Positions 28,086 to 42,511 of a stretch of DNA of 53,942 nucleotides are shown piece after piece (the first letter of the stretch is position 1; each line of letters starts with the position of its first letter). A model generated the notes under the pieces. It was not told where the DNA came from. It saw nothing but the letters and a program-made list of their open reading frames with translations, and did not search any database. Source of the DNA: Candidatus Eiseniibacteriota bacterium (GTDB taxonomy: Bacteria > Eisenbacteria > RBG-16-71-46 > CAIMUX01); contig CAIMUX010000137.1 in assembly GCA_903844735.1 (NCBI GenBank), positions 1-53,942 on the forward strand. Direction: 5' to 3'. A program made the position numbers and the translations under genes.

Positions 28086-28344
28086 GGCCTGCTTACCTGC
28101 TTTCTGCCGTCTGATCCGCCGAACGCCGGGCGCACCGACCGGTCGGTGCCGAAAGACAGACCATCGTCGCCACCCCCAACGAGGCACGGCCGGCACCCTT
28201 CGCCCCACTTCGAGTGGCCACCTACGAGGCTAGCTGAGCTCCGGGGCGCGTTCAAGCGAGTTCACAGCCGGGGATGAGCGCGAGCGCTCGGTTTCATGGC
28301 CCTGCCGCCGCTCCCCAACCCAAATACCCAAGTCATCACCCGAT

Positions 28345-28705
28345 TCGACCCCACCCGCGTATGCGCCAGGCGCGCCTCGATCACATGCTCCCCGGGCCGA
28401 ATCGACCAGCGAACTGAATACGGATACCCGGCCACCTGGTAGGGCGCTCCATCCACGTACCACACAACCTCCGACGTAGGAGGATCCACCACCACCTCCA
28501 AGCCGATGGTCGCCAGGTCCGCCGGGGTTTCCGGATCGCGCAGCAAGCGCGTGCCGATCTCGGGCTGGGTGACCCTGACCTGAACGCCGGGCTCGGTGTC
28601 GCCCGGGCTCCCGGTCGGATGGGCGGGAGCGGTCCGGGCCGAAAGAGAACCAGGCAGCCCGCCCGCGCCGCCCAGGCGGCAACCCGAAGGCGGCGCCACA
28701 GCGCA
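28345..28705 (-). pseudogene. Displaced copy of the 3' end of pbpC
   Basis: About 360 bases, roughly 93% identical to 33880-34240, the end of pbpC. It encodes the BiPBP_C-like β-domain (VQVRVTQPEIGTRLLRD; SEVVWYVDGAPYQVAGYPYS; RPGEHVIEARLAHTRVGSN). The final residues diverge (RVMTWVFGLG instead of RVRIWVE). No start belongs to it; the upstream part is replaced by the end of an AAA_14/DUF4143 gene. Confidence 0.85.
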
Positions 28706-29810: not shown

Positions 29811-30737
29811 TCATGGGGCAGTCCTGGAGAGACGCAGACCGAGCTCGTTGTAGATGCCGCCGGGGCCGCCGCTGCCGCGACCCGCAGACCGGCAGCCCCG
29901 CGCGTCGTCGCCCCAACTACCGCCGCGCCCGACGCGGGACGAGCCGGACGCGGGACCGGTCGGATCCGTCAACGGTCCCGCAGGATACGTTCCGTACCAG
30001 TCCCAACACCACTCAAACACATTCCCGTGCATATCCTTCAGGCCCCACGCATTCGCAGCCTTGCCGCCCACATCGTGGGACGTGCTCGAGGCATTGCCGC
30101 AATACCAACCAACCTGGTCGAGGTTCGGGTCCAACGGCGAGCAGATGAGGTTCGTGATGGCCCCGTTGCAGAACGCCGTCGTGCTCGTCGCCCGGCAGGC
30201 ATACTCCGATTCGGCTTCGGTCAGCAGGCGATACCCATTGGCGGCCTGATTCCAGGTCACCGTGGCGCTGGCGATGTGATTCCCGCTGTAGCTCGCGCCC
30301 GCGATCGTGTAGACAGGCGTATACCCATCGAGTGTGGACCGCTGGTTGCAATAGCTCACGGCATCGTACCAAGTCAAAGTCTCCACCGGACGATTCACGC
30401 CCGAGAAGTAGGACGTGTTCCAGCCCATCACCGCCAGCCACTCCGACTGCGTCACCTCGTACGTGGAAACGTAGATCGCCTTCGTCAAGGTCACCTCGTG
30501 CTGCGTCTCGGCGGAGTAGCGCCCCGGCTCACTCGTCGGGCTGCCCATCGTGAACGTGCCCGCAGGAATCAGGACCATGCCGTCATCGGAGAACGTCACA
30601 CTATCAACATCAGCCAGAAAGTGCCTCTCTACGGTCGCCCCCTTATGGATCTGCATTCTCCACTCGCCCTGACTCACCGACGCTCCGAACACCAGGCACA
30701 GACCGAGGCCCAGAATCAAACCCATGAACCACTTCAT
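29811..30737 (-). CDS. Exported SUMF1/FGE-type (formylglycine-generating enzyme-like) protein
   Basis: 308 aa. A signal peptide MKWFMGLILGLGLCLVFGAS is followed by a short β-module (WRMQIHKGATVERHFLADVD, SVTF) also hinted at in the protein at 30886. Then the FGE-sulfatase domain: MVLIPAGTFTMGSPTSEPGR, YEVTQSEWLAVMGWN, PVETLTWYDAVSYCNQ, NGYRLLTEAESEYACRA, KDMHGNVFEWCWDWYGTYPA, and SSRVGRGGSWGDDARGCRSA. The family fold is secure. Most bacterial exported members are not sulfatase-activating enzymes and are probably binding or structural proteins. AGGGAG precedes ATG 30737. The upstream leader is shared with a broken paralogue (33262-33767). Confidence 0.9.
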   Translation of the reverse strand: MKWFMGLILGLGLCLVFGASVSQGEWRMQIHKGATVERHFLADVDSVTFSDDGMVLIPAGTFTMGSPTSEPGRYSAETQHEVTLTKAIYVSTYEVTQSEWLAVMGWNTSYFSGVNRPVETLTWYDAVSYCNQRSTLDGYTPVYTIAGASYSGNHIASATVTWNQAANGYRLLTEAESEYACRATSTTAFCNGAITNLICSPLDPNLDQVGWYCGNASSTSHDVGGKAANAWGLKDMHGNVFEWCWDWYGTYPAGPLTDPTGPASGSSRVGRGGSWGDDARGCRSAGRGSGGPGGIYNELGLRLSRTAP

Positions 30738-31491: not shown

Positions 31492-32186
31492 CGTCACCTC
31501 CGGTGGAAAATAGAAGCCGCCGCGCCGGATCGCAATCCGGTATGAGCATTAGACTATGGCGGGGGGGGTGAGAGTAACGCCAAGGGGTATCGTCGGTCGA
31601 GCGGCTGTTTTCGGGGGAGCCTGGTTCGGGGCAGACTGCCGTCTCCCGGGCATCGAAGCTCCGCACCGCCGCCTTCTTCATTGAGAACAGCGCGCCCGGG
31701 CGGCTCTCGGGCGACAGAGTCGGCGGGCGGGCTGAGGCCATGCAATGGCCGTTTCGGGCCGGACGAAGACCACCTGGGCGGATCACAACCCGAGACGGGG
31801 AAAGCCTCGAGTAAGCAATTCGTTGCCCCGGTATGTGTTGTGGCTATGACCCCCCTCTCTCTCGGGGGTCGGTTCTCAAATATTGCGGATGCACACCACG
31901 ATGATGCGGCAGGGCCACGAGGGCGGTAAAGGCCTCGACCGAATAGCCACGACGCCCGGCGGACACTTCGCGCAACGACTACGAGCCGGGGCCGGCCGGT
32001 CTGTTTTCGCCCTGGTCCGGCTGGATGCCCGGCCAGGTGTTCGGCGACGGGGCTGCGGGTGCTCTTCGTGGCTTCCCCCGCAGAGAAGCACGGCGGGATC
32101 GAGCGAAACAATCCGCTGAGAAGGCACCCCCGTCGGGTGCTATGCTGTCAGGGGTGACGCTGTGGGAGAAGAGCAGACGAGAAGAA
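31492..32186. other. ~700 bases without a supportable gene
   Basis: Frames on both strands here are proline/arginine-rich and lack family similarity. A run of nine g at about 31559-31567 and low-complexity GC are seen. The right end should hold the promoter of the DUF4258/DUF2283 pair, with a possible extended -10 TGC-TATGCT at 32138-32146. Confidence 0.35.
32138..32146 (+). promoter_or_regulatory. Possible extended -10 for the DUF4258/DUF2283 pair
   Basis: TGC-TATGCT lies about 40 bases before the DUF4258 start, at a suitable distance and matching the extended -10 pattern seen before the giant genes. No convincing -35. Confidence 0.3.
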
Positions 32187-32462
32187 ATGGCCGGACGTGT
32201 AACTGAATACATGATCAGCCGACACGCCGCCCTCCAGATGCAACGGCGTGGGCTTGACGAGGCGATCGTCCGGAGCGTGTTGTTGACGCCTGGACAGCGT
32301 GAAGTTGTGCGATCGGGACGAGTTGTGATGCAGTCACGCGTCGAGTTCCCGAACGGAATCTACATAGTTCGAGTGTTCGTCGACATCGATCGATGTCCCG
32401 CGGAGGTCGTCACCGCGTATCGTACAAACAAAATCGAGAAGTACTGGAGATCTGAACCATGA
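32187..32462 (+). CDS. DUF4258 protein
   Basis: 91 aa: YMISRHAALQMQRRGLDEAI, VRSVLLTPGQREVVRSGRVV, VEFPNGIYIVRVFVDI and EVVTAYRTNKIEKYW. The SxHA..M..RGI....V...L..P……G……R…….VV..…V.T.Y.T.+..KY pattern is that of DUF4258, related to RelE-like/BrnT-type folds. Start at ATG 32187 with GAGAAG upstream; ATG 32211 is possible. The stop overlaps the next gene by ATGA. DUF4258-DUF2283 is a recurring two-gene unit in accessory DNA, presumably toxin-antitoxin-like. Confidence 0.88.
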   Translation: MAGRVTEYMISRHAALQMQRRGLDEAIVRSVLLTPGQREVVRSGRVVMQSRVEFPNGIYIVRVFVDIDRCPAEVVTAYRTNKIEKYWRSEP

Positions 32463-32659
32463 AAGTCACCTATGATGCCAAGACCGACACCCTGACCGTT
32501 ATCCTGAGAGAGGGTGTCAGCGTATCCGAAAGCGATGAGGACAAGCCGGGCGTGATCCTCGATTACGACGACTGCGGGAACTTGCTGTCACTCGAGATCC
32601 TGGACGCCTCCCGGCGCGTCACCGAAGCGCGCAGGATCGAATACCAGATGACGGAGTAG
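32459..32659 (+). CDS. DUF2283 protein
   Basis: 66 aa: MKVTYDAKTDTLTVILREGV, SVSESDEDKPGVILDYDDCG, and NLLSLEILDASRRV. This is the standard DUF2283 pattern (M...YD...D.L.I.…...S.E..PGVI.DYD..G..+.+EILDAS). ATG 32459 overlaps the DUF4258 stop. Probably the antitoxin-like partner. Confidence 0.9.
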   Translation: MKVTYDAKTDTLTVILREGVSVSESDEDKPGVILDYDDCGNLLSLEILDASRRVTEARRIEYQMTE

Positions 32660-32689: not shown

Positions 32690-32965
32690 GATGGTGGCCC
32701 GGTCCGCCGGGGTCTCGAGATCACCCGGCAGCCGGGTCCGCGCCGCCCGAACGGCAGGGCATCGGCTACGTCTATCTTGGGACGAAGGCCGACGCACGCG
32801 ATCGGCGTGTCCCGGCGGACCGTTGCGCGCGTCCCCGGTGATACTCCGGTTGGCCACACAGGCATTCATCGTTTCGCCGCCCGGGGGAAGCCATCCGACA
32901 AACACCTGGTTGCAGTCGAGTGGGGCCAAACTGCCGGTGAGAGCGCAGACCCTTCACGCGACAAC
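32690..32965 (-). pseudogene. Displaced internal fragment of pbpC
   Basis: Homologous to 34190-34460. The minus frame reads DCNQVFVGWLPPGGETMNAC, then VANRSITGDARNG, matching DCNQVFVEWFPPGGEPMDAC in the intact gene. Frameshifts follow (LPGDLETPADRATI appears in another frame). It lies immediately after the DUF2283 gene and is another product of pbpC 3'-end duplication. From 32966 to 33261 I see no supportable gene. Confidence 0.7.
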
Positions 32966-33261
32966 TCCGCCTGCAGGCCCATGGCCTCGGACTCGAGGTT
33001 CCAGAGGAAGGGCCACACCTCGGGTCGACGCTGCTTGCCCCGGGCGGCGCGACGGACGGCAGCGAGGAGCGACGCGAAGCAACTGCCAGTCCCTGGCCGA
33101 ACGACGCATGGTTTCGTCGCATTCGCCCGGGTATGCTCGGTCGCGACCCTCCCGGGCGCGGCAGCGAGTCAAGAGCCGATGCGTCCATGGCGGGGCAAAG
33201 GTGGTCGTCAGCCAAGAATACTCGTCAACGAGACGATCGAGGTTGAGGGATGATCCCACGC

Positions 33262-33767
33262 GCTCACATTGGCGGCCTGATTCCAGGTGACCGTAGCGCT
33301 CGTGATGTGACTCCCGCTGTAGGTCGCGCCCGTGATCGTATACGCAGCGGTCAGCTCCTCGCCGGCGGACCGCAAGTTGCAGTAGCTCACGGCGTCATAC
33401 CAAGTCAAGGTCTCCACTGGACGATTCGCGCCCGAGAAACCGGAAGTGTTCCAGCCCATCACCGCCTGCCACTCCGACTGCGTCACCTCGTACTTGGACA
33501 CATACATCGCATGCGTCAAGGTCACCTCGTGCTGAGTCTCGTTGGCGTTCCGTCCCGGCTCACTCGTCGGGCTGCCCATCGTGAACGTGCCCGCAGGAAT
33601 CAGCACCATCGCGTCATCGTAGAAAGTCAAACTGTCAATGCTCGCCAGAACCCGTTCCCCGACAGTCGCCCCCTGGTGGATCCGCATCTTCCACGCGCCA
33701 TGGCTCACCGACGCTCCGAACACCAGGCACAGGCCGAGGCCCAGAATCAAACCCATAGACCACTCAT
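33262..33767 (-). pseudogene. Broken second SUMF1/FGE-like gene
   Basis: It matches the first ~165 residues of the protein at 29811-30737: MGLILGLGLCLVFGASVSHG, WKMRIHQGATVGERVLASID, MVLIPAGTFTMGSPTSEPGR, and YEVTQSEWQAVMGWN. It stops at TVTWNQAAN, where the sequence becomes unrelated (near 33268). The native start (ATG 33767) is also broken: against the intact copy one base is missing in the second codon, so translation from it ends after six codons. An in-frame ATG at 33756 remains. It lies directly between the pbpC 3' end and the fragments at 32690-33261. Confidence 0.8.
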
Positions 33768-33866: not shown

Positions 33867-36293
33867 CTACTCCACCCAAATCCTAACCCGATTCGACCCC
33901 ACCCGCGTATGCGCCAGCCGCGCCTCGATCACATGCTCCCCTGGCCGAATCGACCACCGGGCCGAATACGGATACCCGGCCACCTGGTAGGGCGCTCCAT
34001 CCACGTACCACACAACCTCCGACGTAGGAGGATCCACTACCACCTCCAAACCGATGGTCGCCAGGTCCGCCGGGGTTTCAGGATCGCGCAGCAACCGCGT
34101 GCCGTTCTCGGGCTGGGTGACCCTGACCTGCACGCCGGACTCCGTGCCGCCCGGACGCCCGGCCCCGGCCGGATGGGCAGAAGCGGTCCAGGTCGAAAGA
34201 GAACCGGGCAGCCCGGCCCTCGCAGCCCAAGCGGCATAGCGCGGGGCTAAGTCGACAACGTGGCGGACTTCAACACACTCGGTCGGCGTGTCCCGGCCGA
34301 CCGGACGCCCGTTGCGTGCGTCCACGGCGACGCTCCGGTGGGCGGCACAGGCATCCATGGGTTCGCCGCCCGGGGGAAACCATTCGACAAACACCTGGTT
34401 GCAGTCAAGTGTGGCCAGGCTGCCGGTCAGAGCGCAGACCCGTCGGGCGAGATAACCCGCGGGCGGAGGGAAGGCCAGATCTTCCAGACCCGCCGCTTCC
34501 ACCGGATGCAGCCGCAGCATCACATCCTGAACCAGACCGGCCGCCGACACCGCACCGCTCAGGTGGTCCATGGGCCGGCTGGCGGGATGGCCGACCCAGG
34601 CGCCGACCAGATAGCGGCGGGAGAACGCCACCGCCCAGGCGTCGCGGAAGTTCGTCGAGGTGCCGGTCTTGACCGCCACGGGGAACGGATACTCCGTCGA
34701 GCCCATCCGCGGAAAACTGGGAAGCCGGGCGAGGGGGTCGGAAAGAAACAGGGTGATTTGCCTCGCGGTGGCCTCGGAGAAGCGCGCCTCGCACTTGTAC
34801 AGGTAGGAGTACTCCTCCCTTTCGCCTCGGTAACAGAGCCAGCGCAGACTCCCGTATCGGCCGCCTCCCGGAATCGTGGCATAGGCCCGCACGATCTGTT
34901 CTAACGTCACGGGCGTGCCCCCGACGGCCAGCCCCAACCCCGAGAGTCTCGCAACCTCAGGATCGTCCACCAACCCGAGGCCCTGCAACACGGAGATGCC
35001 TTCATCGAGCCCCAGCTTGGCCAGCAGATTGACCGCCGGAACATTGCGCGAGTTGGCCAAGGCGACCCTGGGAAGAAGCGGACCCAGAAAGCGTTCATCG
35101 GCGTTGGTGATGCCGCCGGCGCCCCGCTGAACGTCGTCGAGAATCGTGGACGGCGTGATCAGGCCGCGATCGAGAGCGTCCGCGTAGAAGAACGGTTTGA
35201 GGAGGCTGCCGGGGGAACGCAGCACGCGCGTGTAGTCGATCGCGCCGGCATGCTGGTCGTCGAAGTAGCCGGACGATCCGATGCTCGCCAGCACCTCCCG
35301 CGTCTGTGGATCCAGAACCATCAGGGCCACATTGCCGGCCCCGCGGCTTTCCCAGTTTTGCAGATGCTTCGCGGCCAATTCGGTGAGCCGGCTCTGGAGT
35401 TCCAGATCGATAGACAGGTCCAGGATGGTTCGGCTGCCGAGCGCCGCGCGGGCCCGCGGATCCAGGAGTTCTCTTTCCAGGCGGAGGACCAGATGCAGCG
35501 CTTCGATCGGCCGTTGACCCGGCTCCGGGATGATCAGCGTGAGAATTTGACGTTGCGCCAGCTCGTACTGAGCTTCGTCCAGAGCGCCGCGCTTTCGCAG
35601 AAGCTGCAGAATGCGCTGTCCGCGAGCAACGGCCGCGGCCTTGCCTTCGGGTCGGAAGGGGTTCATCCGGCCGGGGGCCTGTGGTATAGCGGTGAGGAAC
35701 GCGGTTTCGGCCCAGCTCAAGTCCTCGACCGGCTTATCCAGATAGCGCCTGGCGGCATAGGCGATCCCATGGATCGAGTTGCCGTACGGTGCTAAGCGCA
35801 GGTAGTGCGCCAAGACCTTCTCTCGCCCATGGCGTGCGGTCAGGAGAAGCGCGGTCGCGCCCTCGACCAGCTTTCGCCCCGGGCTTCGCGAACCGGGGCG
35901 CTGCATCCGGGCCACCTGCATGGCGACCGTCGAGGCCCCGGAAAGGCGCCGACCGTGGGAGAGGTTCTGGATCGTGGCCCGAACGATGGCCAGCGGGTCG
36001 ACCCCGGGATGCCGGTAGAAACGACGGTCCTCTACCGCCAAAGTGGCCGCGGCGACGCGGGGGGGAAGTGCGGCGATCGGCCAGTACCCGGCTTCGGCGG
36101 TGGCATCCGATCCCGGGATCTCGGCCACGCCCCGGATCTCGGCCATGAAACGACCGTGACGGTCCCGTAAAAGCACAGTCGGTTGCGGTGCATCAAGGCC
36201 TGACCGTGACCAGCCCAAGCCCAGTGATACCACGATGGACACGAGCAGGCAAATGAGAGACAGCCCAACGGACTTGTGCCCTCGCCGGTTCAT
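33867..36293 (-). CDS. pbpC: Penicillin-binding protein 1C (bifunctional murein glycosyltransferase/transpeptidase)
   Basis: 808 aa. Residues 10-30 form the membrane anchor (LSLICLLVSIVVSLGLGW). The GT51 domain has the catalytic Glu in LAVEDRRFYRHPGVDP (E88), plus GASTVAMQVARM and ETAFLTAIPQAPGRMNPF. The transpeptidase domain has SPGSLLKPF (SxxK, about residue 361), ANSRNVPAVNLL (SxN) and VAVKTGTSTNFRDAWAVAFS (KTG, about 540). A PbpC-specific C-terminal β-domain follows (DPPTSEVVWYVDGAPY). All catalytic motifs are intact. It is the last gene of the operon with alpha-2-macroglobulin. Its start is reached through the repeat at 36294-36416 and overlaps the last repeat unit's stop (ATGA). PbpC/A2M pairs are conserved widely and thought to act together in envelope defence. 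Confidence 0.95.
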   Translation of the reverse strand: MNRRGHKSVGLSLICLLVSIVVSLGLGWSRSGLDAPQPTVLLRDRHGRFMAEIRGVAEIPGSDATAEAGYWPIAALPPRVAAATLAVEDRRFYRHPGVDPLAIVRATIQNLSHGRRLSGASTVAMQVARMQRPGSRSPGRKLVEGATALLLTARHGREKVLAHYLRLAPYGNSIHGIAYAARRYLDKPVEDLSWAETAFLTAIPQAPGRMNPFRPEGKAAAVARGQRILQLLRKRGALDEAQYELAQRQILTLIIPEPGQRPIEALHLVLRLERELLDPRARAALGSRTILDLSIDLELQSRLTELAAKHLQNWESRGAGNVALMVLDPQTREVLASIGSSGYFDDQHAGAIDYTRVLRSPGSLLKPFFYADALDRGLITPSTILDDVQRGAGGITNADERFLGPLLPRVALANSRNVPAVNLLAKLGLDEGISVLQGLGLVDDPEVARLSGLGLAVGGTPVTLEQIVRAYATIPGGGRYGSLRWLCYRGEREEYSYLYKCEARFSEATARQITLFLSDPLARLPSFPRMGSTEYPFPVAVKTGTSTNFRDAWAVAFSRRYLVGAWVGHPASRPMDHLSGAVSAAGLVQDVMLRLHPVEAAGLEDLAFPPPAGYLARRVCALTGSLATLDCNQVFVEWFPPGGEPMDACAAHRSVAVDARNGRPVGRDTPTECVEVRHVVDLAPRYAAWAARAGLPGSLSTWTASAHPAGAGRPGGTESGVQVRVTQPENGTRLLRDPETPADLATIGLEVVVDPPTSEVVWYVDGAPYQVAGYPYSARWSIRPGEHVIEARLAHTRVGSNRVRIWVE

Positions 36294-36416
36294 ACGTGCT
36301 CGCCTACCTCGACCCTGCGTCCGCGCCGATTCATCAACGCTTGCCTACCTCGATCCTGCGTCCTCGCGCGTTCATGGGCGCTTTCCCACCTCGATCTTCC
36401 GCCCGCGTCCCGTCAT
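36294..36416 (-). repeat. Three 41-bp tandem repeats forming a chain of overlapping stop/start codons
   Basis: Between the A2M stop and the pbpC start on the minus strand are exactly three 41-bp units. Each carries a Shine-Dalgarno-like GAGGTGGG or GAGGTAGG followed 8-9 bases later by an ATG, at 36416, 36375, 36334 and finally pbpC at 36293. The units encode 14-, 13- and 14-codon peptides (MTGRGRKIEVGKRP, MNARGRRIEVGKR, MNRRGRRVEVGEHV). Each stop overlaps the next ATG (ATGA, TGATG, ATGA), and the A2M stop overlaps the first. The peptides resemble the A2M end (AAIEVERRP) preceded by the PbpC start (MNRRG), so the unit arose by duplicating the original junction. Confidence 0.85.
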
Positions 36417-39400
36417 GGACGCCTCTCCACCTCAATCGCCGCCCCGGGAGAGCATCCGCTGACCCCCAAGTCATACATCATCTCCGATCGCGCCGGCGGC
36501 TGTATGAAGCGGCCTTCCACCGTGGCCCTAGTCCGGAAGTAGAAGTCATAGGTTCCGGTCGGCAGCACGTCATAGTAGAAGCAGACCTGGTCGTCGAGAT
36601 AGGACGCATAGGTCGGCGGCTGCGTAATCCGGCCGCGCGGCTGGGCCTCGGGGGGCGCCGTGGCCAATCGCGGATTCAAGACTTCCATCCCGGCAGCCAA
36701 CGGAACGACCACGGCGACAAAGTTCCGATTGTCGGCATTGACCACTCGGACATGGTCCTCGATGACATCGCCAACCCGAAACGTGTACAGCTTTCCCGGA
36801 GCGTCGATCTTGATCCGCTGTGGAGCATCGCCCTCGGCGCCAACCAGGACGATTTCGCGCGTGACCGCAAAACCGGCGGCGCGCGCAGGCGCCTGGCTTC
36901 CGTCGGCCGCGGGCAGGTAGGAAGTCTCGACCCTTGCGATCACGGGTCCGTCGCCTGTCTTCCACTGGACCTCACCTGCCTCGACGCTGCTTGTCGACCA
37001 GGTTCCCGTCGGTGTGTCGGGTCCGAGCTGTATTGTTCCATCCTCCGCTCCAGAGCGAACAGCGATGGAAGCCGTGGCCGCGCCGGGGAATGGCGCCTTG
37101 TATAACCCGGCCAGCGCCAGGAGGGCGGCCGCATTGGCCTGGGTGCTGCCCCAGCCGTCGTCCATCCCCAACGTGACCAGGGCATCGGTCAGAAGCTGGA
37201 GGCGAGGATGGGTGCCCGGCGTGGCGACCATGGCGCGCACCAGCTCGGCGATCGTGCGGGTCTCGCTCTGCAGGATGAGTCCGGACGAAGTCCTTGTTTC
37301 CTGCAAGCCGCCATAGATTTCTCGACCCTGGTAGAGTCGGGTGACCACACCCTGAGAGAGTTTCTCCGCCAGGGCCGGCAGCACCGGCGCATCGGCCTGT
37401 CCTCCCGCGGCGAAAGCCTGCACGACCTTGGCCGTGGATTCCAGATCGAGAAACTCGGAGCGTCGGGCCAGTTCCGCCGCGTAGGAGGGCTCGAACTTGC
37501 CCGCCGCGGTCAACGCCACCAGCGCCCAGGAGCGCTCGGCGTACGCTTCCCCGTCGACGAACCGGGCGTAGTCGGATCGCAAGGACTGGGTCAGCGAACG
37601 CGTGAGCGTGGCCAAGAGGTCATCCGAGACGGCATAGCCGGCGTCCTTGGCCTCGACCAGAAACTGCGTCGTCCAGGCGGTCAAGGACACATAACCGGGG
37701 CTTCCCGGCCAGTAGGCCACCAGACCATCCCGGTCCATGGCGGAAGGGATCCACTCCAGGGTTTCCCGCACGATCCGATCGATGCTCTCCTGCGAGGCGT
37801 CCTGCTGCAGGACGGTGCGCAGTTGCTTCGTGGCCACCCCGGCCCGAGCCCGGGAGATGCGTTGCTCGGTGCAGCCGTACGGATACTCGAAAAGGTACTG
37901 CAGTCCGGCGGCCATGCGCACCAGCGCCGGTTGGCCACAGACAAAGACGCTGCGGTGCACCGTTCCCGGCCGCGCCGGGTCCGCAATCGCGGGAAAGGCC
38001 CAAGACGCGTCCTTCGACAGATCGGCCATGGCGCGGGTGGTGATCGGGGACCGATCCTCCCGAATGGGCAGCTTCACCTCGAAGGCATCGGTGGCGCCAT
38101 CGGAATCGCGGGCCACGCCGACCCGGAAGGTCGCCTCCGTGAGGCTCCGTTGACCATCGGCTGTATACGTAGGCGCATAAGGAGCCGCATCCGTAGCTGC
38201 GAACGTAGGCGTCGATACGATGACCTCGAAGGCGATGCGCTCCGGCTGGTTGGGCACAAACGTCAGGGCGCGCCGGGTCTCGCCGGTGAGGGTCACGCCT
38301 TGGACCTGGATCTGAGCGCTTCCCGGACCTCCCTCCCCCTCGACGACCCGACCAAAGGCCGCGGCCACGAACCGATCCCCCGGACGCAGGAATCGAGGAA
38401 GGGCGGGCTGGACGATCAGGGGCAAGCGCACGGCGATCACACCGGTCCCGTAGCCGAAGCGCTGGGCACCGCTGACCACCTTCGCGCGGATCTTGAAGTT
38501 CGTCAGGTTGTCGGGCAACGTCACGGTGACCGTCGCCATCCCGTCGTCTCCTACCATGATCTCGGGATTGTAATAGGGAACCGACTGGAAGAGCTTGCGG
38601 ATGGTCGCCCGGTCGAGAATCTCCTCCTCTTCGGCCCCGGCGCCTCCGCCCGGCCGCTCGGCGAAGGGAAGGTAGCCGAAGGCCGAGTTGCGGGTATCGC
38701 GCAGGCTAAGTTGGGAGCTGACCTCCGTGATGAAATCGGGCACCGGGTCGAGCGGCTGCTCCTTACCCAGGGCGAGGACCGCGGCATCGACCAGCCAGAG
38801 GGTGACCTCTCCCGGCAGGGGTTTCCCCGCGGGATCGGAGAGGCTGATCTTAATGTCGATCTTCTCGCCCGGGCGCCCCTTCTGTGGAGCCTCGAGCTTC
38901 ACCTCGGCGCGGTTGTCGAGAGGGTTGACCTTGATCCAAGCCGTGGAGGCCATGGTCGTGGGTTTTCCCAAGTCGGTGGTCGATCCGGCTTGCGGAACCG
39001 AGCCGGAAGGACGCCCGCGCATGAGGACAAAGTGCACCGGCACGCGGGGGGTGTAGATGCCGCGAATCGGGAGACGGAAGGTGGCGGCCCCGTTGCGGAT
39101 CTGGATCCACTGGACCTCGTTTCCTTCTGGACCCTCGACGATGACCAGCGCCTCCGCCTCCCGGAAGGGACTCTCCAAGACCAGGGCCGCGGTCTCTCCG
39201 GGATCGTAGCTCGGCTTATCCGAGGCCACGGAGAAGACAGGGGTCGAGGGCTTCGGCCAGGTCACCGGCTCGTCGCCACCCGCATAGAGATCGACCGAGA
39301 CGACCAGAGCCCGGCCCAGACGGTCGTGCGCCTCCAGTTCCACGATGTAGACCCCGGCCGTCTCCACCGGTAGAGAAAGCGTGACTGCATCGGCGGCGCT

Positions 39401-42400
39401 CTCGATCTTCTTCTCCATCACCTTCACGTCGACCACGTCGGTCAGGTAACGCGCCTCTCCCGAGGAGAAGTCGCTCTCCCGCAGAACCGAGTGCCATTGC
39501 CGATGCAGCAGACGCACGGTGACGGGCAGCCCGGCCAGCGGCTTGCCCGCGTGGTCTAAGACCAGGATTTCTGGATCGATCGAGCGCGCATGTTCGATAT
39601 AGCGCGGAACCTTCAGCCCCAAGACGAACGGAGGCAGGGCCACGACTCTGCACATGCCCGTGACCGTCTGGTCATCCGGTCCGGTCACGGTCGCCTCGAC
39701 GACGTAGGTGCGCGGTTGGGCCGTGGGCTCAATCGTGGGGTTGAGCACCAAAGCCGCGGTTCCACCCTCGTCCGTTCGGTCCTGCCGCTCCTGTTTGGGC
39801 GTGGACTGGAAGCGACCCAGACCTGAGAACCTCCCGTCCGAGGAGAAGAAGAATCCGGGCCGTCCCTCCGGACGCCAGGGGTAGGGAAACTGGGTCACCC
39901 GCCACTGCACCGGCCGATCGGCCACCCGGCCGCCCGCATAGTAGGTTGCGGTCAACGTGATCTCGGCCTCGTGGTCCAGAGGTATGCGGTCGGGGGCGTG
40001 CAACTGGACCTCGAACTCGGGAAGCCGGTAGGCATCGAGTTTGAAGCCCACCGTCGCGTAGGTCTGCTCCTTGATGTCCACAAGCCGCGCGAGGTAGTCC
40101 CCAGTGGGCAGCTTCTCCTGGGTGAAGGGATAGTAGAAGCTGCCTTGAGAATTCAGGGTCACGGGGTACTTCCACTTCAGACTCCCCGGACCTTCGATGA
40201 CCAGAAAGGCGTCCATGGAGAGGATGGACAGAGAGCCCTTCTCCCGCTTCCGAAGATACCCCTTGATGTGAACCTTTTCCTCCGGGCGGTACACCGGACG
40301 CTCCGTGAAAAGGTGACAGAGAGTGTCAGGTCGGGCTCCTCGCTCTCCCAATGTCTCGCCGGCCCAGGCTAGCCAGGTTCCGTCCGATGGAGACCAGTGG
40401 TTGTCTGTATATGTGTCAGGCGCGTCATCAGGATCGAGAATCAGTTGATCATCGGGTGTGCGCACGACGATTCGTCTCATCGATACATCCCGGCGCGCGA
40501 AGGTGGAGGGCGGCTCCCACACATAGAGGCCCTTCTCGTCGGTGATGCCTTCGGCCAAGGTCGTCCAGCCGAGGGAGCCATCGGCCCGCACGTCCCGGCG
40601 GTCCATGCTCGTGTCGATGGTGAGGACTGCGCTGCGGGCCAGGCCATCGAGCACGACGCGGGCGCCGACGACCGGCCGGCCGGTGGAAAGCGAGGTGACG
40701 ACAAAACGCACCCCCTTGGGCTCCTCCACCGTGGTCAGCGACAGATCGGTCACCTGCACGCGCATCCATTCCCGGGTCGTGTCCCCATTGAGCCGGCGGA
40801 TCCCCACGAGGTACGTGCCCGAAGCACCTTTCCCGGAAGCCATGGTCAGGTGGGGGGCGAGGTCGAGCCCGAAGTCGGCCGCTCGCCCCCGCCGATTCAG
40901 CGGGAGATCGACGATTCTCGAGACCACCGGCGTGCCCAGCGCAACAATGCGACGCAGCAGCTCGTGAGGCGGAATCGGACCCGGCGTGTCATCGAAGGGT
41001 TCCGGTTCCTCGCCCGGGCCGGGCGGTGCCGGGGACTCATCCACGATCATGCTCCCATAGTAGGGGGGGACATTTCTCGAACGGCCGCGGAAACCAGCCC
41101 CGTAGCTCTTGCGGGAACGTTCCCACCTCTCTCCACCGCCCCCCTCATCCCCCTCATCTCCGTCATCCCCCTCGTCCCTGCGGTTTTCCAAGCCCGGGAA
41201 CGGCCAAAAGGAACGGTCCAAAGGATCGATCTTGTACATGCGCAGATCCACGCGATCGTCATCTCTTCCCTCGAGCGGGACCATCTGGGGTCCGTACCGC
41301 TCCACAATGCCGGCCCGTCTTCCCCAGCGCAGATAGGACGGCTCACTGCGAAAGTAGAAATACAACTCACTTTCCCCGTGGAGCTCCAAGGCTCGTCCCT
41401 TGCGGTCGGTCATGGGTGTGGGAACGATGGTCGCCCGATAGACCGTCTCCGGAAAGAAGTCGCCCGTGACCTCCAGAGTCGTCCGGGAGAGCTGGAAGGA
41501 GAGGTTGTCCACCGAGGGGGTGAAGCGTACCAGGTTCCTGCCCAGGGCCGGGCCGAAGCTGGACGGCTCGGCGTTGAATGCGATCAGCAACTGCGGGGTG
41601 TCCCCGTCACCGGCCAGGGCCTGCTCACGGGTGTAGCGCGTCCCATTCGGCGTAATCGGGTATCGATTCCAGCTCGGGCCCAGGCCGACGATGCGGAAAG
41701 GCTCCGCCGTCCGAAACCCGAATTCTGTGAAAGACCGCTGCGGGTCATCGTCCAGGGAAAGGCGCAGGTGAACGATCGCTCTGGTCTCCAGAGGAATCGG
41801 CTGCGCCAGATCGAGCACATAGGTGGCCGGATCTTCAGTGCCGGAGCGTTCCAGAGCCTTGACCTGGAAGTCCTCCGCCCGGCGCCAGCGGGCCTGCGTG
41901 CGGTCGATGCCGGGGAGGGGGCGAAGCTCGATCGAGATCATGCGGGCCAGCGCCTCGACGTCCACCGCCTCGGGAAAGGTCAAGGTGATCAACTCCACCG
42001 ACTCCAGGCTTTCGTCGCCATCGGACGGGATCGTCGAAATCGGGGCGGACATCAGGGTGTTGAGGGTGGCCTTGGCCCCTTCGACCCGGACCATGACGCG
42101 CGCCAGAGGCGGCCAGGGCGAGGCGGGCCGAAACTGCAGGGTCCGGGCATCCAGCCACTGGAACGCGCCCGGGTGGCTGGGAGAAAAGGTGACGAAGCGA
42201 TCCGGATGATCCTCAGGACCTCCGGTGTCCGGACCGGTGTCGCCGGAGAAGAAGACAGTCACCGGGTCCCAACGGCGAAGAAAGGTATCGGGAACGATGA
42301 CGTTGCCCTTGGCCCCGGCGGGCCGGTGGACGCCGGCCGCTCGAACGGCAGGCACCGAAGCCGGGGCCGCGGGCTCGGAAACCTGAGCGACGGGCCCCGA

Positions 42401-42511
42401 AGCCGCGGCAGCCGGCTCGGAAGCCTCGACCACGCGTGTCCAGAAGAGGGGCGCGATTACGACACAAAGGCCTATCACAAGGAACGAGGATCGAATGCGC
42501 GTGGGGTACAT
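36413..42511 (-). CDS. Alpha-2-macroglobulin family protease inhibitor
   Basis: 2032 aa, longer than the ~1650 of E. coli YfhM. Signal region MYPTRIRSSFLVIGLCVVIA; no proper lipobox. A low-complexity Ala/Pro/Glu linker follows, then the macroglobulin domains (DRFVTFSPSHPGAFQWLDAR; HLFTERPVYRPEEKVHIKGY; YRLPEFEVQLHAP). The central A2M domain has SVPYYNPEIMVGDDGMATVT and TVTLPDNLTNFKIRAKVVSG. The thioester motif is intact in LFEYPYGCTEQRISRARAG (about residue 1544). A thioester-domain helical barrel and a receptor-like C-terminus follow. It should trap attacking proteases at the cell surface. Upstream neighbour: a giant secreted protein; downstream: pbpC. GGAG lies 10 bases before ATG 42511. 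Confidence 0.94.
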   Translation of the reverse strand: MYPTRIRSSFLVIGLCVVIAPLFWTRVVEASEPAAAASGPVAQVSEPAAPASVPAVRAAGVHRPAGAKGNVIVPDTFLRRWDPVTVFFSGDTGPDTGGPEDHPDRFVTFSPSHPGAFQWLDARTLQFRPASPWPPLARVMVRVEGAKATLNTLMSAPISTIPSDGDESLESVELITLTFPEAVDVEALARMISIELRPLPGIDRTQARWRRAEDFQVKALERSGTEDPATYVLDLAQPIPLETRAIVHLRLSLDDDPQRSFTEFGFRTAEPFRIVGLGPSWNRYPITPNGTRYTREQALAGDGDTPQLLIAFNAEPSSFGPALGRNLVRFTPSVDNLSFQLSRTTLEVTGDFFPETVYRATIVPTPMTDRKGRALELHGESELYFYFRSEPSYLRWGRRAGIVERYGPQMVPLEGRDDDRVDLRMYKIDPLDRSFWPFPGLENRRDEGDDGDEGDEGGGGERWERSRKSYGAGFRGRSRNVPPYYGSMIVDESPAPPGPGEEPEPFDDTPGPIPPHELLRRIVALGTPVVSRIVDLPLNRRGRAADFGLDLAPHLTMASGKGASGTYLVGIRRLNGDTTREWMRVQVTDLSLTTVEEPKGVRFVVTSLSTGRPVVGARVVLDGLARSAVLTIDTSMDRRDVRADGSLGWTTLAEGITDEKGLYVWEPPSTFARRDVSMRRIVVRTPDDQLILDPDDAPDTYTDNHWSPSDGTWLAWAGETLGERGARPDTLCHLFTERPVYRPEEKVHIKGYLRKREKGSLSILSMDAFLVIEGPGSLKWKYPVTLNSQGSFYYPFTQEKLPTGDYLARLVDIKEQTYATVGFKLDAYRLPEFEVQLHAPDRIPLDHEAEITLTATYYAGGRVADRPVQWRVTQFPYPWRPEGRPGFFFSSDGRFSGLGRFQSTPKQERQDRTDEGGTAALVLNPTIEPTAQPRTYVVEATVTGPDDQTVTGMCRVVALPPFVLGLKVPRYIEHARSIDPEILVLDHAGKPLAGLPVTVRLLHRQWHSVLRESDFSSGEARYLTDVVDVKVMEKKIESAADAVTLSLPVETAGVYIVELEAHDRLGRALVVSVDLYAGGDEPVTWPKPSTPVFSVASDKPSYDPGETAALVLESPFREAEALVIVEGPEGNEVQWIQIRNGAATFRLPIRGIYTPRVPVHFVLMRGRPSGSVPQAGSTTDLGKPTTMASTAWIKVNPLDNRAEVKLEAPQKGRPGEKIDIKISLSDPAGKPLPGEVTLWLVDAAVLALGKEQPLDPVPDFITEVSSQLSLRDTRNSAFGYLPFAERPGGGAGAEEEEILDRATIRKLFQSVPYYNPEIMVGDDGMATVTVTLPDNLTNFKIRAKVVSGAQRFGYGTGVIAVRLPLIVQPALPRFLRPGDRFVAAAFGRVVEGEGGPGSAQIQVQGVTLTGETRRALTFVPNQPERIAFEVIVSTPTFAATDAAPYAPTYTADGQRSLTEATFRVGVARDSDGATDAFEVKLPIREDRSPITTRAMADLSKDASWAFPAIADPARPGTVHRSVFVCGQPALVRMAAGLQYLFEYPYGCTEQRISRARAGVATKQLRTVLQQDASQESIDRIVRETLEWIPSAMDRDGLVAYWPGSPGYVSLTAWTTQFLVEAKDAGYAVSDDLLATLTRSLTQSLRSDYARFVDGEAYAERSWALVALTAAGKFEPSYAAELARRSEFLDLESTAKVVQAFAAGGQADAPVLPALAEKLSQGVVTRLYQGREIYGGLQETRTSSGLILQSETRTIAELVRAMVATPGTHPRLQLLTDALVTLGMDDGWGSTQANAAALLALAGLYKAPFPGAATASIAVRSGAEDGTIQLGPDTPTGTWSTSSVEAGEVQWKTGDGPVIARVETSYLPAADGSQAPARAAGFAVTREIVLVGAEGDAPQRIKIDAPGKLYTFRVGDVIEDHVRVVNADNRNFVAVVVPLAAGMEVLNPRLATAPPEAQPRGRITQPPTYASYLDDQVCFYYDVLPTGTYDFYFRTRATVEGRFIQPPARSEMMYDLGVSGCSPGAAIEVERRP

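Follow-up and report, generated by a model that had tools for sequence, protein, structure and literature searches.

Introduction

Termination–reinitiation at NTGA (−4) overlaps of stop and start codons couples the translation of trpB and trpA and of genes in many other operons. Such coupling is most efficient at spacings of −4 to +3 and, in most studies, is largely lost beyond about 30–40 nt (PMC12548453). The same 2025 review discusses short "delivery" uORFs and bicistronic designs, as well as the mycobacterial interspersed repetitive units (MIRUs), in which a −4 overlap brings about coupling of the small ORF that they carry (PMC12548453). In the senX3–regX3 region, three MIRUs of 77 or 53 bp are found that vary between strains (PMC4213456); we take this example, which goes back to Supply et al. 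1997, as it is recounted in PMC12548453 and PMC4213456. The pairing in one operon of a thioester alpha-2-macroglobulin (A2M) with penicillin-binding protein 1C (PBP1C) is likewise known (PMC5764988).

Here we describe an A2M–pbpC operon in a 53,942-nucleotide stretch of DNA from a Candidatus Eiseniibacteriota bacterium (hereafter the window) in which the junction between the two genes is present in four copies, each with its own overlapping stop and start codons.

Results

Anatomy of the A2M–pbpC junction

The operon lies on the minus strand and has the known order, thioester A2M followed by PBP1C. The A2M product is a bacterial alpha-2-macroglobulin of type I with 2032 aa, a thioester motif YGCTEQ around residue 1547 (CXEQ motif search) and the C-terminus ...GAAIEVERRP, while PbpC has 808 aa and the N-terminus MNRRGHKSVGLS (MNRRGHK). 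The features of the junction, with the mini-ORFs and junction 0 read directly in the sequence, are as follows.

36413–42511, minus: A2M gene (Pfam A2M, MG2, A2M_BRD (bait region) and bMG10)
36429–36433, minus: GAGGT, Shine-Dalgarno-like, before mini-ORF 1 (anti-SD duplex −7.8 kcal/mol)
36413–36416, minus: junction 0, ATGA, in which the A2M stop (36415–36413) overlaps the start of mini-ORF 1
36294–36416, minus: array of three 41-bp units (Tandem Repeats Finder; lag identity)
36372–36416, minus: mini-ORF 1, MTGRGRKIEVGKRP, 14 aa, ending in ATGA
36388–36392, minus: GAGGT before mini-ORF 2 (anti-SD duplex −7.9 kcal/mol)
36334–36375, minus: mini-ORF 2, MNARGRRIEVGKR, 13 aa, ending in TGATG
36347–36351, minus: GAGGT before mini-ORF 3 (anti-SD duplex −8.0 kcal/mol)
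36290–36334, minus: mini-ORF 3, MNRRGRRVEVGEHV, 14 aa, ending in ATGA on the pbpC ATG
36306–36310, minus: GAGGT before pbpC (anti-SD duplex −8.0 kcal/mol)
33867–36293, minus: pbpC, penicillin-binding protein 1C (Pfam Transgly, Transpeptidase and BiPBP_C)

The repeat is far beyond chance: its Tandem Repeats Finder score of 120–127 is the top of the window, and self-identity is 0.71 at lag 41 versus 0.27 at lags 40 and 42. Together with the A2M end and the pbpC start, the array makes up four junction copies, with ATG starts at 36416, 36375, 36334 and 36293 (minus) that are spaced exactly 41, 41 and 41 nt apart. From A2M to pbpC the overlaps read ATGA, ATGA, TGATG and ATGA, so that co-directional ORFs are joined by four NTGA or TGATG overlaps in series, and a second in-frame TGA follows the TGATG end of mini-ORF 2. 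Because A2M ends in AIEVERRP and PbpC starts with MNRRGHK, each mini-ORF can be recognized as combining the head of pbpC with the tail of A2M. The GAGGT of mini-ORF 1 sits within Glu-Val codons of A2M, and the Shine-Dalgarno sequences of the array (−7.8 to −8.0 kcal/mol) are at least as strong as that of the genome's average called start (−6.35 kcal/mol). The frame of pbpC opens just 54 nt before the ATG at 36293, and no other ATG, GTG or TTG is present in this 54-nt opening as an alternative start.

An earlier note on this DNA had described three units of exactly 41 bp between A2M and pbpC, each stop overlapping the next start, and had interpreted the unit as a duplicated A2M-end/pbpC-start junction that imposes four initiations on the way from A2M to pbpC. 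Direct reading of the sequence, the head-and-tail makeup of the mini-ORFs and the four serial starts agree with this description in all main respects. The motif GAGGTRGG, which the note assigned to every unit, is present in three copies but not in the A2M-end copy, which reads GAGGTGGA. The note was also correct that a unit of 41, not being a multiple of three, shifts the frame; the key property, though, is that 41 = 3 × 14 − 1, by which a mini-ORF ends on the next ATGA.

Several other features lie in the neighborhood of pbpC. Fragments of the PbpC C-terminus are found downstream of pbpC at window positions 28325–28672 (87%) and 32705–32980 (56% identity), and on other contigs of the host genome at C47:27187–27333 (67%) and C3:84291–84413 (76% identity). 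Truncated and full copies of an FGE-sulfatase gene (SUMF1-like; 33208–33756 and 29811–30737, minus) lie near each other and close to the pbpC fragments, which suggests local duplication. A DUF4258/DUF2283 pair with overlapping stop and start (32025–32659, plus) resembles a small toxin–antitoxin-like module.

Divergence of the junction copies

The four junction copies align without gaps. Adjacent copies are identical at 28, 30 and 31 of 41 positions (68–76%) and the outermost pair at 21 of 41; differences between units amount to 10–20 of 41 positions (24–49%). That neighbors are more alike than the outermost pair is what stepwise tandem duplication with later divergence would produce. The longest exact run between neighboring units is 11 bp. 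Over the four copies 19 of the 41 columns are invariant, among them every one of the nine that make up GAGGT and ATGA, a concentration with a hypergeometric P of 2.6e-4 for motif limits that were chosen post hoc. Third codon positions take 8 of the 11 differences between mini-ORFs 1 and 2 (P = 0.009) and, once mini-ORF 3 is added, 11 of 19 (P = 0.024); both counts are post hoc and from a small sample, and the bias hints that the frames may be translated.

The array sequence occurs at a single place in its own genome (E ≤ 0.001). RNA folding predicts no strongly inhibitory structure for it, the fold being weaker than that of shuffled sequences (z = +1.4), and this value gives no grounds for attributing coupling to RNA structure or to a hidden start that becomes unmasked.

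Bare junctions in other A2M–pbpC operons

A search for the array in relatives found no congener, and the A2M–pbpC operon is absent from genomes of the same family. The closest pbpC genes share 59% identity or less and belong to Acidobacteria, Proteobacteria and other groups. The earlier note had proposed a search for bare junctions, and these are present both in other genomes and in the host itself. We compared 73 A2M–pbpC junctions, among them two distant pairs and that of the window. A simple NTGA overlap is present in 15 (a count that leaves out the first junction of the window because pbpC lies further on) and 17 have a gap of 0–30 nt; apart from the window, none of the 73 has a comparable chain of junction copies. 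The second A2M–pbpC pair of the host genome reads TAGGAGATG, a bare junction.

In four loci of Methylosinus/Methylocystis type (L088, L100, L102 and L104), palindromic repeats are inserted at the A2M–pbpC stop/start overlap, in L088 in frame with the PbpC N-terminus. Their relatives L084, L086 and L108 have a bare ATGA.

The same architecture at other gene junctions

The host genome (G000) is a 142-contig draft of 5.4 Mb with an estimated contamination of 5%. We surveyed 2.31 Mb of it with a simple codon-usage gene caller, which yielded 1725 genes and 1177 co-directional pairs, 172 of them with a −4 overlap. Six further duplicated junctions were found in these 2.31 Mb.

L174 9437–9569 (G000:C3:69437–69569), minus: AllF (FdrA-type)–AllG, two extra 44-bp units
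L158 14643–14714 (G000:C2), plus: HemW-like/glycosyltransferase, one extra 32-bp unit
L252 (C33): CBS/MgtE_N protein–Nramp transporter, one 74-bp unit
L244 (C119): MacB-type ATPase–permease, one 44-bp unit
L236 (C103): RbsA–RbsC type pair, a 42+44-bp double unit forming one 29-aa mini-ORF
L156 9403–9520 (G000:C1), minus: RNase HII–MFS, 19–20-bp array with four mini-ORFs

The AllF–AllG relay is GTGA/ATGA/ATGA and reads ...LLGAGAGRKA / VKAHDFRGADAGRKA / MSARDLLGADAGRKA / MNARDLLAGVPEV..., while the same gene pair in a relative of the same class (L272) is joined by a bare ATGA. The HemW–glycosyltransferase junction reads ...PVPVDGTRR / MKTAPVEGRRG / MKTALVQDW.... When tail and head of the flanking genes are compared with the units, which was done for all duplicated junctions but RNase HII–MFS, identity to the unit's own flanking genes is 25–35 of 42, whereas 20,000 permuted comparisons reached no more than 24. 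At each junction the unit derives from its own two genes.

The RNase HII–MFS units, with 65 of 69 matches at lag 19, are near-identical enough for copy-number variation. Gene-end repeats that lack DTGA overlaps (L138, L167 and L263) were left out of the count, and L214 and L239 are not clear junction copies, their repeats being confined to one mini-ORF or to an extension of an N-terminus. In L214 (4695–4805, minus) a 15-bp repeat array occupies one 37-aa mini-ORF that has −4 overlaps at both ends and lies between a zinc-ribbon-like protein and an uncharacterized gene.

As controls we used 1.0 Mb of Burkholderia stagnalis (68% GC) and 0.62 Mb of loci from other phyla, in which the same procedure found no duplicated junctions. 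The difference is borderline, both for tail duplications (8 in the host survey versus 0 in the controls; P = 0.034) and for junction duplications at NTGA-type stops (7/498 versus 0/283; P = 0.042). The clearer signal is that tandem arrays of period 40–45 bp are overrepresented, making up 34 of 155 in the host genome versus 3 of 81 in the controls (P = 8e-5). We read this surplus as a sign that the genome often makes such duplications, some of which land on gene junctions. Many intergenic arrays with a period of 42–43 bp are present in the host genome (for example L182, L191, L192, L206 and L221); they belong to several families and are often at contig ends.

Reading phase of the units

Units of length 3n−1 are found at A2M–pbpC (41 bp), AllF–AllG (44), HemW (32), Nramp (74) and MacB (44). 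A first estimate of strong phase selection (5/5, P = 0.004) was weakened by a simulation of indels, in which relay closure survives most random single-base insertions and many deletions in GC-rich sequence, and by a phase-blind search, which, with the A2M array included, returned units of 2 mod 3 five times, of 0 mod 3 twice and of 1 mod 3 once. Of 70 pairs, 32 have their upstream and downstream NTGA separated by a distance of 2 mod 3 (P = 0.02), an excess that is not significant without the duplicated pairs. Genome-wide, 71 relays stand against 59.5 ± 4.4 in dinucleotide shuffles, a modest excess; a larger one, against single-base shuffles (71 versus 45), shrank in this comparison. Given the mixed phase-blind set and the frequency with which closure survives indels, selection for the relay form or its reading phase is suggestive only.

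Discussion

We propose a model in which an ancestral −4 (ATGA) overlap of A2M and pbpC would have undergone three tandem duplications through a process resembling slippage, of the kind that appears often to make ~42-bp tandem repeats in this genome. Because coupling is limited in distance, a duplication of ~120 nt would break it unless ribosomes were carried across. In our model, ribosomes terminating on A2M would reinitiate stepwise through the mini-ORFs, with four restarts to pbpC, and the Shine-Dalgarno sequence before each start would aid termination–reinitiation. Since the unit is 3n−1 long, each mini-ORF stop would overlap the next start and pbpC would stay coupled to A2M, perhaps with some, at most passive, loss of PbpC per step. 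The sequences themselves show the anatomy of the array, the head-and-tail makeup of its mini-ORFs, the recurrence at other gene pairs and the bare junctions in other places; we infer the slippage origin of the array and, equally, the translation of the mini-ORFs and the preserved coupling. Overall, we consider it probable that the array is a tolerated junction duplication of slippage type, the relay form of which preserves pbpC–A2M coupling, and that it is not an evolved tuning device.

A different possibility is that the array is an inert minisatellite, with pbpC starting de novo and the open mini-ORFs arising as a by-product of in-phase duplication in GC-rich sequence. The Shine-Dalgarno sequence of pbpC itself is intact and equally strong, so that ribosomes may start there de novo and make no use of the relay; moreover, closure is often kept after random indels, and the genome-wide excess of relays over shuffles is small. 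A neutral repeat does not account readily for the invariant columns held by GAGGT and ATGA (P = 2.6e-4) or, post hoc, for the third-codon-position bias of mini-ORF differences (8/11, P = 0.009), and we therefore regard this explanation as unlikely.

The earlier note had viewed the array as a copy-number-tunable attenuator of the PbpC:A2M ratio. If such a device had been selected, the number of units would set the ratio through the fraction of ribosomes lost at each restart, and the arrangement would indeed yield a geometric loss per step; all four starts keep their ATG, an equal Shine-Dalgarno sequence and an overlapping stop despite a divergence of 24–49%. Neither half of this proposal was borne out. 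With just 28–31 of 41 positions identical between neighbors and a longest exact run of 11 bp, the units have diverged too far for their number to change readily; such change is unlikely to be fast at present, and at 68–76% identity they are not the highly similar units of a VNTR. Attenuation, for its part, is not supported: pbpC has a Shine-Dalgarno sequence of its own, from which it may start de novo, and a strong inhibitory fold is not predicted (z = +1.4). The recurrence at unrelated gene pairs points to a general duplication process. A selected attenuator is thus, in our judgment, quite unlikely.

An assembly artefact would be conceivable in a metagenome-assembled genome of 142 contigs with 5% estimated contamination, yet it is very improbable because the units differ at 10–20 of 41 positions, the array is short (123 bp) and the same architecture is found on six other contigs (C1, C2, C3, C33, C103 and C119). 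The MIRU-like anatomy of a small ORF with −4 overlaps in tandem copies might speak for the insertion of a MIRU-type element, mobile or interspersed, at the ATGA junction. This origin can practically be dismissed, given that the unit is at one genomic place and that the unit of each junction is derived from its own two genes.

Returning to the model of a tolerated junction duplication, we tentatively add a broader proposal, which we hold to be unlikely, namely that tandem duplication of −4 junctions is recurrent and retained in this lineage, placing strings of translated mini-ORFs between the genes of operons, and that relay length affects the protein ratio. If true, these arrays would be the genome's self-made equivalent of MIRUs, and small genes could arise de novo by this route. 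The recurrence suggests a route by which short translated ORFs could arise inside operons, through simple duplication without a mobile element. The unrelated gene pairs of this one genome, whose natural junctions range from a single step to three and more, are ready test objects for how efficiently the same ribosome reinitiates, and serial junctions bear on whether coupling passes along a series. In annotations by gene callers that disregard ORFs of this small size, such regions would appear to be ordinary intergenic gaps, and the coupling would be overlooked.

How does this locus compare with known systems? As in classic NTGA coupling, each junction of the array combines a Shine-Dalgarno sequence with an NTGA or TGATG overlap; classic coupling, however, normally has one junction per gene pair, whereas here four are placed in series with mini-ORFs of 13–14 aa between them. 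The mini-ORFs also resemble "delivery" uORFs in that a short ORF would pass its ribosome on to the start that follows, but "delivery" uORFs are fed by a leader while the three serial mini-ORFs of the array would be fed by a large upstream gene. The palindromic inserts of Methylocystaceae (L088, L100, L102 and L104) are in the same operon and at the same A2M/pbpC overlap site; they differ in being hairpin-type repeats and not junction copies, with at most one mini-ORF.

The closest likeness is to MIRUs, in which short units stand in tandem between co-directional genes and a small ORF is coupled by a −4 overlap. The A2M–pbpC array shares with them the start/stop overlaps (DTGA sites) and the tandem units in an operon junction, and both the 77 bp of a MIRU and the 41 bp of the array are 3n−1; the unit lengths differ, with 41 bp here versus 53–77 bp in senX3–regX3 (PMC4213456). 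The earlier note had held that such a relay is in no standard list of regulatory elements; mycobacterial MIRUs, as tandem small ORFs with −4 overlaps (PMC12548453, PMC4213456), contradict this, and small ORFs chained by overlapping stops and starts between operon genes are therefore not new. Beyond MIRUs, no description of units that are junction copies was found in a literature search of limited scope. MIRUs are a dispersed, apparently mobile family, whereas the A2M–pbpC unit does not belong to a dispersed family of related sequences: such copies were sought in its own genome and not found, and the unit, found once, is built from the ends of its own flanking genes. Likewise, the other duplicated junctions of the genome have unrelated units that were made in the same way. 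What sets these units apart from the dispersed MIRU family is thus their source, each being a copy of the junction itself.
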